NCBI GenBank assembly: GCA_903837555.1
Contig: CAILUV010000057.1
Coordinates: 1-32,242, forward strand
Length of the DNA: 32,242 nt
Direction: 5' to 3'
From: an uncultured Alphaproteobacteria bacterium
GTDB taxonomy: Bacteria; Pseudomonadota; Alphaproteobacteria; Micropepsales; Micropepsaceae
The notes under the pieces are model-generated. The model was not told the DNA's origin. It did not search any database and saw nothing but the letters and a program-made list of their open reading frames with translations. Position 1 is the first letter of the stretch, and each line of letters starts with the position of its first letter. A program made the translations under genes and the position numbers. This document shows positions 3,244 to 5,931 of the stretch, one piece after another.

Positions 3244-4124
3244 GCCGCGCGGGGCCTTTTCGACACGATCCACAGCAGCAGGCCGGCGCCGATCCAGATC
3301 GGGATCGACAGCGCCATGCCCATGCTGATGGGACCGATGAACTGGGTGTCGGGCTCGCGGAAGAATTCGCATATGAAGCGAAAGAGGCCATAGCCCGCCA
3401 GGAAGATTGCCGAGATCAGGCCGGGCTTCTGGTGGGCGCGGAACACGCGCAAGGCGACCTGCACGATCACCAGCAGCACCAGGCCTTCCAGCGCCGCCTC
3501 GTAAAGCTGGCTGGGATGGCGCGGCAGCGGTCCGCCGCGCGGAAATACCATCGCCCAGGGCACATCGGTGACCCGGCCCCACAATTCGTCATTCACGAAG
3601 TTGGCGATGCGCACCAGGAAGATGGTGATGGGCGCGAAGGCGCAGGTGAGGTCTGAGACCGACAACATGCTGACCTTGTGGCGGCGGCTGAAAAGCCAGA
3701 CCGCGATCACCGCGCCCAGCAGGCCGCCATGGAAGGACATGCCGCCTTCCCAGGCGGCGATGATGCGGACGGGATCGGTGACGAAGGCCAGCGGCAGCCC
3801 GTCGCAATATTGGGCATAGCTGGGGGTGACGCTGCACAGCACGGTTCCATAGATCAGCACCCAGCCCAGGCGCCCGCCCAGGATGACGCCGAAAATGATC
3901 CACACCGCCAGGTCGCTGATCTGGTCTTCCGTGGCCGGGGGGCGGCCGTTGAAGGGCGGGGGCGCCCACAGGGCCTTCTGGCGCAGCGCCCGGGTGATGC
4001 CCCACCAGCCCAGCAGGATGCCCGCGATATAGGACAGGGCGTACCAGCGGATCGGGATCGGCCCCAGTTGCAGGGCAATGGGATCGATATTGGGAAAGGG
4101 GAGCGCGGCCAGGGCTTCGATCAT
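3240..4124 (-). CDS. lgt: Prolipoprotein diacylglyceryl transferase
   Basis: Lgt transfers diacylglycerol from phosphatidylglycerol to the lipobox cysteine of prolipoproteins at the inner membrane. The 294-aa product starts MIEALAALPFPNIDP and has about seven hydrophobic segments. Family signatures are MSFHGGLLGA with its essential His, RIANFVNDELWGR, and RHPSQLYEA. The start at 4124 is preferred because residues before it in the open frame are polar and unlike the family. It is the first gene of the lgt–midA–pgeF–prs run. It is divergent from ubiK across 78 bp, which must hold both promoters. Confidence 0.96.
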   Translation of the reverse strand: MIEALAALPFPNIDPIALQLGPIPIRWYALSYIAGILLGWWGITRALRQKALWAPPPFNGRPPATEDQISDLAVWIIFGVILGGRLGWVLIYGTVLCSVTPSYAQYCDGLPLAFVTDPVRIIAAWEGGMSFHGGLLGAVIAVWLFSRRHKVSMLSVSDLTCAFAPITIFLVRIANFVNDELWGRVTDVPWAMVFPRGGPLPRHPSQLYEAALEGLVLLVIVQVALRVFRAHQKPGLISAIFLAGYGLFRFICEFFREPDTQFIGPISMGMALSIPIWIGAGLLLWIVSKRPRAA

Positions 4125-4202
4125 GGCGGTAAAACGCGATGGTTCGGTGCTTGTGTCAAGTGAAGGTGGCGGCCATATAGACGCTGACAACGGAGGCTTC
4201 TG

Positions 4203-4454
4203 ATGGCGCAGACCGACAATCCCTTCCTGGATGGCGTGGCGAAGGCGTTCACGGACGCAGCCGGCATGGCCCAGAGCGTGCGCGTCGAGATCGACACCTT
4301 CATGCGCCAGCGGCTGGAACGGCTGGTGGCGGACATGGATTTTGTTCCCCGGGAGGAATTCGAGGCGGTGAAGGCGATGGCGGCCAAGGCCCGCGCCGAG
4401 AACGAGGCCCTGGAGGCCCGGATCGCAGCTTTGGAATCCAAATCAACCACTTAG
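4203..4454 (+). CDS. ubiK: UbiK family accessory factor (BMFP domain)
   Basis: The 83-aa small protein matches the UbiK/YqiC family, which assists aerobic ubiquinone synthesis in γ-proteobacteria and forms trimers. The first half is an amphipathic region (MAQTDNPFLDGVAKAFTDAA), followed by MDFVPREEFEAVKAMAAKARAENEALEARIAALE, a clear heptad coiled coil. The length is typical. It is divergent from lgt, as in many Alphaproteobacteria. A role in ubiquinone synthesis is inferred from the family. Confidence 0.88.
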   Translation: MAQTDNPFLDGVAKAFTDAAGMAQSVRVEIDTFMRQRLERLVADMDFVPREEFEAVKAMAAKARAENEALEARIAALESKSTT

Positions 4455-4555
4455 CGGAATCGCCAAGTCATCCCCGACTCCTTTCGGGCGAATCTGTGAG
4501 CCGATTCAAAGCTGTGGAATCTTTTTCCGCGGCGTGGATGGGGACTCGCGGACTC
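4434..4555. promoter_or_regulatory. Cluster of eight GANTC (CcrM-type methylation) sites
   Basis: Eight GANTC pentamers start at 4434, 4457, 4476, 4490, 4503, 4517, 4543 and 4551. The first is inside the last codons of ubiK and the rest fill the gap before the YbjN gene. A random sequence of this length would hold about half a site at 1/256. GANTC is the target of the cell-cycle methyltransferase CcrM in Alphaproteobacteria. The 4503 and 4517 sites also form an inverted pair (GATTC/GAATC). The cluster lies 68 bp or more upstream of the YbjN start, so a methylation-sensitive promoter is one reading. No function is proven. Confidence 0.55.
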
Positions 4556-4622
4556 TTGTTTTCTCTAAATCTTGTGCCAGTTTGGATCGCAACTGCTTCG
4601 TTTAGTGGCTGGAGCGCGCCTT

Positions 4623-5129
4623 ATGAGTATCATGCATCTCGACGACGAACCGGTGGGCACCCTGCACCCGCTGGACCTGCTGGAGCGGGCGGTCGAGGCC
4701 AATGGCTGGGCCTTTGAACGGGCCGGGCGCGACGAACTCAACCTGTCGGTGGCGGGCAAGTGGAGCGACCACCATTTCAATTTCTCATGGCGCGAGGACC
4801 TGCAGTCGCTGCATTTGTCCAGCGCCTTCGACATGCGCATCAGCGAAGGGGTGCGCCGCCAGAACGTCGCCGACCTCTTGATGCATGTGAACGCCAAGCT
4901 GTGGATCGGCCATTTCGACCTGTGGCCGCAGGACGGCACCATCATCTTTCGCCACGCCATGATCTTCCCGGATGCGGAAGCCAGCGCCGCCCAGTGCGAA
5001 GCGCTGCTCAACCTGGCGCTGGAAGCCTGCGAACATTACTACCCCGCTTTCCAGTTCGTGCTGTGGGGCGGCAAGACGGCGGAAGACGCCATCGCTTCGG
5101 CCGTGCTGGAATGCGCCGGACAGGCTTAA
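4623..5129 (+). CDS. YbjN domain-containing protein
   Basis: The 168-aa product has the YbjN fold pattern: a start with LHPLDLLERAVEANGWAFER, alternating strands (LNLSVAGKWSDHHFNFSWRE), then a helix-rich second half (VRRQNVADLLMHVNAKLWIGHF) and a C-terminal EACEHYYPAFQFVLWGGK. The family resembles type III secretion chaperones in fold; in E. coli YbjN is linked to stress and motility, but no biochemical role is settled. The ATG at 4623 follows a GGAG at the right distance. An in-frame TTG at 4572 exists but would add an unlikely N-terminus. It lies four bases upstream of proC, so the two are likely co-transcribed. Confidence 0.86.
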   Translation: MSIMHLDDEPVGTLHPLDLLERAVEANGWAFERAGRDELNLSVAGKWSDHHFNFSWREDLQSLHLSSAFDMRISEGVRRQNVADLLMHVNAKLWIGHFDLWPQDGTIIFRHAMIFPDAEASAAQCEALLNLALEACEHYYPAFQFVLWGGKTAEDAIASAVLECAGQA

Positions 5130-5133
5130 GCCC

Positions 5134-5931
5134 GTGAGTGTGCTGCTGATCGGCGCCGGCCGTATGGGCGGCGCATTGTTGAAGGGCTGGCTGGCGCGCG
5201 GCGTCAAACCCATCACTGTGGTCGAGCCCAAGCCGTCGGCCGAATTGCGCAAGCTGGCGAACGCCAAAAAAATCTCGCTGCTGTCCGCGCCGTCGCAGGT
5301 GACGAAAAATCCGTCGGTGTGCGTGGTGGCGATCAAGCCGCAAGTGCTGAAAGGCGAGGCCGCGACGCTGGCGGGCTTTGCCAACGATGGCGCGCTGATG
5401 ATCTCCATTGCGGCGGGCACGTCGGTGATGGCGCTGACCAGGGCCTGGGGCGCAAAAGCGCGCATCATCCGCGCCATGCCCAATACGCCCGGTGCGATCG
5501 GCGCGGGCATCACCGGCATGTATGCTGCCAAAGGCGTGACGCCCGCGGACAAGAAGCGCGCGACATCGCTGCTGGCGGCCCTGGGCGATACCGAGTGGGT
5601 CGGCAAGGAAGGCCTGATCGACAGCGTCACGGCGGTGTCAGGTTCCGGCCCTGCCTATCTGTTCCTGATGGTGGAAGCGCTGACCGATGCGGGCGTGGCA
5701 GAAGGCCTTTCAAAAGTTCAGGCCGAGAAATTCGCCCGCGCCACGGTGGCGGGGGCAGGCGCCTTGCTGGCGGCGGACAAATCACCGGCATCGGCCTTGC
5801 GCGAGGCCGTCACCAGTCCCGGCGGCACGACTGCAGCGGCGCTATCGGTTCTGATGGCGAAAGATGGGCTGACGACGCTGATGAAGCGCGCGGTCAAGGC
5901 GGCGCGCAAACGCGCGCAAGAGCTGCGTTAA
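5134..5931 (+). CDS. proC: Pyrroline-5-carboxylate reductase
   Basis: This enzyme carries out the last step of proline synthesis, the NAD(P)H-dependent reduction of Δ1-pyrroline-5-carboxylate. A GTG at 5134 gives MSVLLIGAGRMGGALLKGW, a correct Rossmann start, and a 265-aa protein of family length. Further signatures are RAMPNTPGAIGAGITGM in the middle and the C-terminal SGSGPAYLFLMVEALTDAG plus REAVTSPGGTTAAAL, the ProC signature. The GTG lies four bases after the YbjN stop. The gene ends in a 4-bp interlocked overlap with the convergent histidine kinase (TTAA, 5928–5931), leaving no space for a terminator. Confidence 0.96.
   Translation: MSVLLIGAGRMGGALLKGWLARGVKPITVVEPKPSAELRKLANAKKISLLSAPSQVTKNPSVCVVAIKPQVLKGEAATLAGFANDGALMISIAAGTSVMALTRAWGAKARIIRAMPNTPGAIGAGITGMYAAKGVTPADKKRATSLLAALGDTEWVGKEGLIDSVTAVSGSGPAYLFLMVEALTDAGVAEGLSKVQAEKFARATVAGAGALLAADKSPASALREAVTSPGGTTAAALSVLMAKDGLTTLMKRAVKAARKRAQELR

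Follow-up and report, generated by a model that had tools for sequence, protein, structure and literature searches.

CcrM-controlled promoters are already known; what appears new at the locus described here is the unusually large number of GANTC sites and the proposed link to ybjN. The GcrA protein of Caulobacter binds methylated GANTC, and its coverage of the DNA widens when both strands are methylated (PMC3667746). Caulobacter transcription starts that carry GANTC between the -35 and -10 elements are reported to rise at 40-60 min (PMC4287350). In that study, 11 of 96 cell-cycle starts had more than one GANTC within 50 bp; mipZ has two GANTC (PMC3667746). No promoter with eight to eleven GANTC, and no report linking ybjN to CcrM or GcrA, was found in the open-licence papers searched, and the main text of PMC7987155 contains no mention of ybjN.

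The GANTC array was identified in the window (the whole 32,242-nucleotide stretch of DNA that was analysed, from a member of the Micropepsaceae). The array spans 4434..4555 (no strand assigned) and comprises eight sites, starting at 4434, 4457, 4476, 4490, 4503, 4517, 4543 and 4551. A re-count on the window letters recovered every one of the eight starts claimed in an earlier note made from the letters alone (hereafter the sequence-only reading). That note had placed the array between a gene for a ubiquinone factor and a YbjN/proC unit, which is right for the seven sites in the 168-bp gap between ubiK/BMFP and ybjN; the first site (4434) lies instead within the final codons of ubiK/BMFP, whose stop codon ends at 4454. 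This upstream neighbour, recognised from its reading frame, encodes an accessory factor of the UbiK/BMFP family (4203..4454, plus strand; PF04380, E = 7.5e-26). The first gene downstream of the array is ybjN (4623..5129, plus strand; PF10722, E = 1.1e-29), with its ATG at 4623, followed by the pyrroline-5-carboxylate reductase gene proC (5134..5931, plus strand; PF14748, E = 3.9e-32, and PF03807). The proC gene starts with GTG four bases past the ybjN stop codon, a spacing from which the two genes probably form one operon. A check for phage DNA gave no match among phage records.

GANTC is avoided in the window (45 sites observed against 124.5 in dinucleotide shuffles), which makes the cluster more outstanding than the sequence-only reading supposed. 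Its estimate of one GANTC per 300 bp elsewhere holds for the first 2 kb alone, where there are 6 sites; the 37 sites outside the cluster correspond to about one per 870 bp. The GANTC rate of the own genome is 1.45/kb in a sample of 637,110 bases (10,189 of them masked N), or 26% of the genome, and 1.42/kb in 321 kb. At the genome rate, about 0.17 sites are expected in a 122-bp interval and the Poisson probability of at least eight is 1.5e-11; the eight-site cluster is not due to chance. Similar clusters occurring throughout the genome, which the sequence-only reading had named as evidence against itself, were not seen in the 26% sampled: at least five GANTC in 122 bp occur at one other place, the own ccrM promoter, with seven sites, and three further places hold four. 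Seven control palindromes of the same base make-up reach a maximum of 5 in 122 bp in the 637-kb sample. The site-to-site distances of the array are 23, 19, 14, 13, 14, 26 and 8, so that several spacings are indeed of 13-14 bp, as had been pointed out. Among 21 family arrays with at least six sites, no clear periodicity of 10-14 bp was found; the best period is 13 bp (mean R 0.41 vs 0.30 for random placement, mean rank-p 0.29), and no helical phasing was found at ybjN.

The ybjN gene was detected in 85 of 100 genomes, which include 55 of the 60 same-genus genomes, own included. A total of 130 loci were compared, 50 of the same genus and 80 from named contigs, with 61 non-redundant same-genus upstream regions; some of the same-genus ybjN matches outside the 50 (G003, G010, G026, G053 and G058) may be among the named-contig loci. 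The 220 bp before ybjN contain 1 to 11 GANTC in the 61 non-redundant loci, with one site in five loci, two in five, three in seven, four in seven and at least five in 37. Conservation in relatives, a check proposed by the sequence-only reading, is thus borne out, all 61 loci having at least one GANTC; 17 of the 61 have only one to three, and the array is weak in some species. The GANTC density in the 61 220-bp gaps is 23.5/kb, compared with 1.1-6.6/kb for the seven control palindromes. Across 55 same-genus loci, GANTC peaks at 25.0/kb in the 200 bp before ybjN, and the 19 other 200-bp bins from -2,000 to +2,000 show 0.8-2.6/kb. Six GANTC are present in the 220 bp before ybjN in Rhizomicrobium electricum DSM 21034 (L097); as this is an isolate, the array is unlikely to have arisen from faulty metagenome assembly. 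The contrast is weaker in the single-contig same-genus genome G046, which has 6 GANTC per 220 bp at ybjN, and 5 in two of 19 other 16-kb stretches.

The alignment indicates that the upstream array sites come and go between relatives, while the block at 4551-4604 stays. In 14 close relatives, mean entropy is 0.58 at N, 0.28 at G, 0.50 at A, 0.58 at T, 0.26 at C and 0.59 in the flanks; N varies scarcely more than the four fixed bases or the flanks, and selection on each individual site is therefore not proved. The 315 family sites have A (88), C (118), G (82) or T (27) at N, and 161 of them are preceded by G. Judging from these comparisons, a single core site and a high overall density seem to be kept, and the remaining sites turn over.

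The conserved block GACTCTTGT..AAATCTTGTGCCAG..TGCTTCGTTT (4551..4604, plus strand) is non-coding, measures 54-56 bp and carries GACTC at its head, a site found in 58 of the 61 loci. Part of its invariance in the block alignment is by construction, as the 31 relatives aligned were picked by pattern; the 61-locus figures are independent of this choice. Further upstream, the sequence and the family alignment reveal a AAAGCTGTG box followed directly by the GAATC at 4517 (4508..4521, plus strand). A [CT]TGTG box starts 39 bp ahead of GACTC in 51 of 58 loci; the distance is 38 bp in four others and 25 bp in the last three, and the sequence between them is variable. GACTC and AAATC are 18 bp apart in 42 loci and 16 bp apart in 13, which covers all 55 loci measured. 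Among the 61 loci, GACTCTTG occurs in 58, A(A/G)AT(C/G)(T/C)TGTG in 58, TGTGNCA in 61 and TGCTTCG in 60.

The -10 form of Caulobacter is GCTANAWC, and TCTAAATC (4564..4571, plus strand) matches it at 7 of 8 positions and was predicted as a putative -10 element. The near-invariant GACTC at 4551 lies 10 bases before this element, and no -35 was recognised. With TCTAAATC as the -10, the invariant GACTC would be set in the spacer and the TGTG box would fall near -67. A scan with an E. coli-type consensus found no sigma-70 promoter at the block. No RNA covariation was found in the block: the consensus fold reaches -1.87 kcal/mol, and none of its pairs shows changes on both sides across 20 sequences. 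The fixed spacing across unconserved DNA, together with the lack of RNA covariation, points to proteins bound on double-stranded DNA, and hence to the gap being a promoter.

No convincing second copy of the block was found in the own genome, where all other matches have E values of 0.8 or worse. A block search of 240 class genomes, run with stricter filters, gave some match at E ≤ 1 in 114 of them; the four strongest (33.6-61.5 bits) are all from the same genus, and the next, at 19.4 bits, was treated as noise. The block model has no match in 26 ccrM, gcrA and class-level loci. A degenerate palindrome, CTCTAAATCTTGTG (4563..4576, plus strand), is a possible operator on exploratory grounds, with the exact form CACAAAATCTTGTG in 14 of 61 relatives. 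This palindrome overlaps the putative -10 of ybjN, and sequences like it are present ahead of ccrM and gcrA. CACAAAATCTTGTG resembles the NrdR box. No genome-wide enrichment of the NrdR-like pattern was found in four genomes (21 vs 44 for the control); among its matches are ybjN (three genomes) and ccrM loci (two genomes), and the motif of the class-level scan was drawn partly from the same sequences. The 168-bp gap contains neither GTTC nor GAAC, and so no LexA motif GTTC-N7-GTTC (PMC7987155), and the CtrA half site TTAA is absent from it as well.

The regions upstream of ybjN in more distant bacteria were also compared. Upstream of 25 ybjN loci from other Alphaproteobacteria (mostly Hyphomicrobiales, seven of them Ancylobacter), GANTC reaches 12.0/kb in the first 200 bp and is also raised in the three next bins (6.6, 3.6 and 4.0/kb). 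GANTC stands 7 or 8 bases before a TATAnT-like hexamer in 12 of these 25 loci, compared with 1 of 25 further upstream, and other palindromes give 0 or 1 in this position. This pattern is a lead only, since it was spotted in the same sequences before being counted and the loci are not independent of one another by descent. Across many orders the sites are unevenly distributed, with GANTC in 14 of 25 ybjN loci (20 at 250 bp and 5 at 200 bp) and none in 11; of 30 class-level ybjN matches, those outside the loci read are in G063, G065, G066, G071 and G081. The genome G083, 86% complete and with no ccrM match, has three GANTC within 250 bp before ybjN (L222).

One CcrM-type methyltransferase, with N6_N4_Mtase and RAMA domains, was found in the own genome. 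Its best solved match is 6pbd (CcrMI), with 572 bits over residues 6-356 of 357. The genome thus encodes a ccrM homolog, the lack of which would have told against the proposal made from the letters alone. One GcrA was also found (PF07750 at G000:C95, E = 1.8e-47; G000 is the own genome). Seven GANTC lie in the 78 bp upstream of the own ccrM, as read from the sequence (L001:2266-2343 on G000:C98, minus strand). Among the best 30 same-genus ccrM matches, own included, 29 loci have 6-8 GANTC within about 150 bp of the start, and the thirtieth (L209) has three in that stretch, with another three a little further upstream. The centre of the ccrM array is nearly fixed in position (GATTC, GACTCTTGAC, GANTC, GAATC), and the GACTCTTG element is common to the ybjN and ccrM promoters. 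The ccrM arrays lean to phasing at 10.5 bp (mean R 0.59 vs 0.33, mean rank-p 0.09) in 18 arrays that are related to one another. In another 15 ccrM loci (13 class-level and two same-genus), two lack GANTC within 200 bp, and the remaining 13 have at least two sites there. By eye, TTGAC-N3/4-GANTC-N5/6-GANTC is visible in many ccrM promoters of other families (L281-L295), an arrangement that looks like an old core of ccrM control. ccrM has already been proposed as a core GcrA target from a set that includes Rhizomicrobium palustre (PMC7987155), and the ccrM array therefore extends known biology.

The gcrA promoters have 0-3 GANTC in 250 bp in 25 usable same-genus loci; from the set of 30, three loci of other families and two with mis-found starts (L249 and L259) were left out, and L254 is roughly placed. 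By eye, gcrA promoters of the genus (L232-L258) share TGTGGAC(A/G)A, CTTGTG and TACGATATCTTGTGG-like elements at similar spacing.

Collectively, we favour, at a probability of roughly 0.6, that the gap is the ybjN(-proC) promoter and that the GANTC array makes this promoter respond to CcrM methylation. A methylation-dependent promoter is the best reading because ccrM is present, comparable clusters are not scattered over the 26% of the genome sampled and the cluster is conserved. The methylation-dependent switch put forward by the sequence-only reading gains from the rarity and conservation of the cluster and from the ccrM homolog, and the switching itself is presumed. In the proposed mechanism, the array sites would be methylated on both strands before replication, would become hemimethylated upon passage of the fork, and would regain full methylation as CcrM builds up late in the cycle. 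The near-invariant GACTC, set ten bases upstream of the putative -10, may be the main target of GcrA with sigma-70 RNA polymerase, or of another reader of the mark. The variable upstream sites may bring more reader to the locus or lessen the weight of any one site in the signal. Transcription of ybjN, in whichever direction it is controlled, would thereby be tied to replication via a mark that is also abundant at the ccrM promoter, and by analogy with Caulobacter ybjN should follow the methylation cycle. The extended GcrA consensus is YGAKTCK (PMC7987155), and it is fitted by 0 of the 8 own sites, 17 of the 315 ybjN family sites and 58 of 195 ccrM sites. So few fits at ybjN count against a simple GcrA reading. 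Further points against the favoured account are the 17 gaps with one to three sites, the weaker contrast in G046, the 11 ybjN loci of other orders with no GANTC, the three sites in G083, the limited freedom at N and the failure to recognise a -35.

Several other explanations of the array were considered. It could titrate CcrM or GcrA as a decoy or sink, or could serve a chromosome-organising protein as a binding patch, and its place in the gap would then be incidental, with only the block at 4551-4604 regulating ybjN. The array and the block do evolve differently, the upstream sites turning over while the block persists, and there are far more sites than in the Caulobacter promoters covered by PMC4287350; set against this, in 55 loci the array holds its position immediately ahead of ybjN, and the other array found is on the ccrM promoter, where a promoter role is natural, which leaves such a sink unlikely. 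That the sites bind a regulator whose motif contains GANTC, methylation not being read, seems unlikely as well. It would suit an N that is just slightly freer than the fixed bases, the G at the 5' side in 161 of 315 sites and the mixed fit to the GcrA consensus, but all four bases are found at N and the flanks form no single longer motif. Moreover, the genome avoids GANTC and encodes a CcrM homolog, from which the sites are probably methylated. A passive accumulation of GANTC merely tolerated between genes is hardly credible when the 61 gaps carry GANTC at about 16 times the genome rate, with control palindromes less enriched, even though GANTC is more than 1.5-fold over-represented between genes as a mean of CcrM orders (PMC3973325).

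The strong conservation over about 55 bp would also be expected if the block encoded a small RNA or formed a structured leader, with the array as its promoter, and a small RNA promoter was among the functions suggested by the sequence-only reading. This suggestion found no support: a search of 4000-5200 against Rfam gave nothing up to E 1, the block has no compensatory pair in the 20 sequences with the fold given above, and we regard it as improbable. A replication origin, in which GANTC would play the part of GATC at E. coli oriC, might be suggested by the packing of the methylation sites, by the likeness of the TGTG boxes to DnaA boxes and by the strong conservation of the non-coding block. 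In many Alphaproteobacteria, hemE and parB mark the origin region. In the own genome these genes are on another contig, separated by 13 kb; in G053 they are separated by 14 kb, with ybjN at a distance of about 0.44 Mb. No lasting GC-skew change was found at the site in the window or in G046, whose skew is noisy and does not pin down the origin; an origin in the gap is thus very improbable. The position of dnaA does not coincide with that of ybjN in G028, G046 or G053. The distance from hemE to the best parB match is 1.5-1.7 Mb in the single-contig genomes G028 and G046, compared with 13-14 kb in G000 and G053; some members of the genus thus seem to have lost the usual grouping of genes around the origin.

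A broader proposal, which we consider less likely than not, is that YbjN is an unrecognised part of the CcrM/GcrA circuit, timed by a multi-site methylation integrator, and that the Micropepsaceae have a small class of promoters with high-density GANTC arrays. The clearest members of such a class would be ccrM and ybjN, and YbjN might, for example, be a partner or feedback regulator; taken jointly, these additions are speculative too. If the methylation-dependent reading is true, the locus offers a natural test of the effect of site number in an m6A-controlled promoter outside Caulobacter, and ybjN, a poorly known conserved gene, is flagged as a cell-cycle gene. The array common to ccrM and ybjN is a concrete, falsifiable lead on the role of YbjN.

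Compared with known systems, the ybjN promoter resembles the CcrM/GcrA promoters of Caulobacter (ctrA P1, mipZ and podJ P2) in having GANTC in the presumed promoter of a host with CcrM and GcrA, and in having one near-invariant GANTC close to a putative -10. It differs from them in its eight sites, and up to 11 in relatives, whereas Caulobacter starts mostly have one, and its methylation dependence is putative. E. coli oriC has a GATC cluster. The ybjN array is like it in that sites of an orphan methyltransferase are packed in a short non-coding stretch, and unlike it in lying off the usual origin neighbourhood, in its motif and enzyme, and in having a gene directly downstream. The nearest likeness within the genus is to the ccrM promoter: both have a dense GANTC array and the GACTCTTG element, but the ccrM sites are near-fixed around TTGAC, whereas most of the ybjN sites drift.
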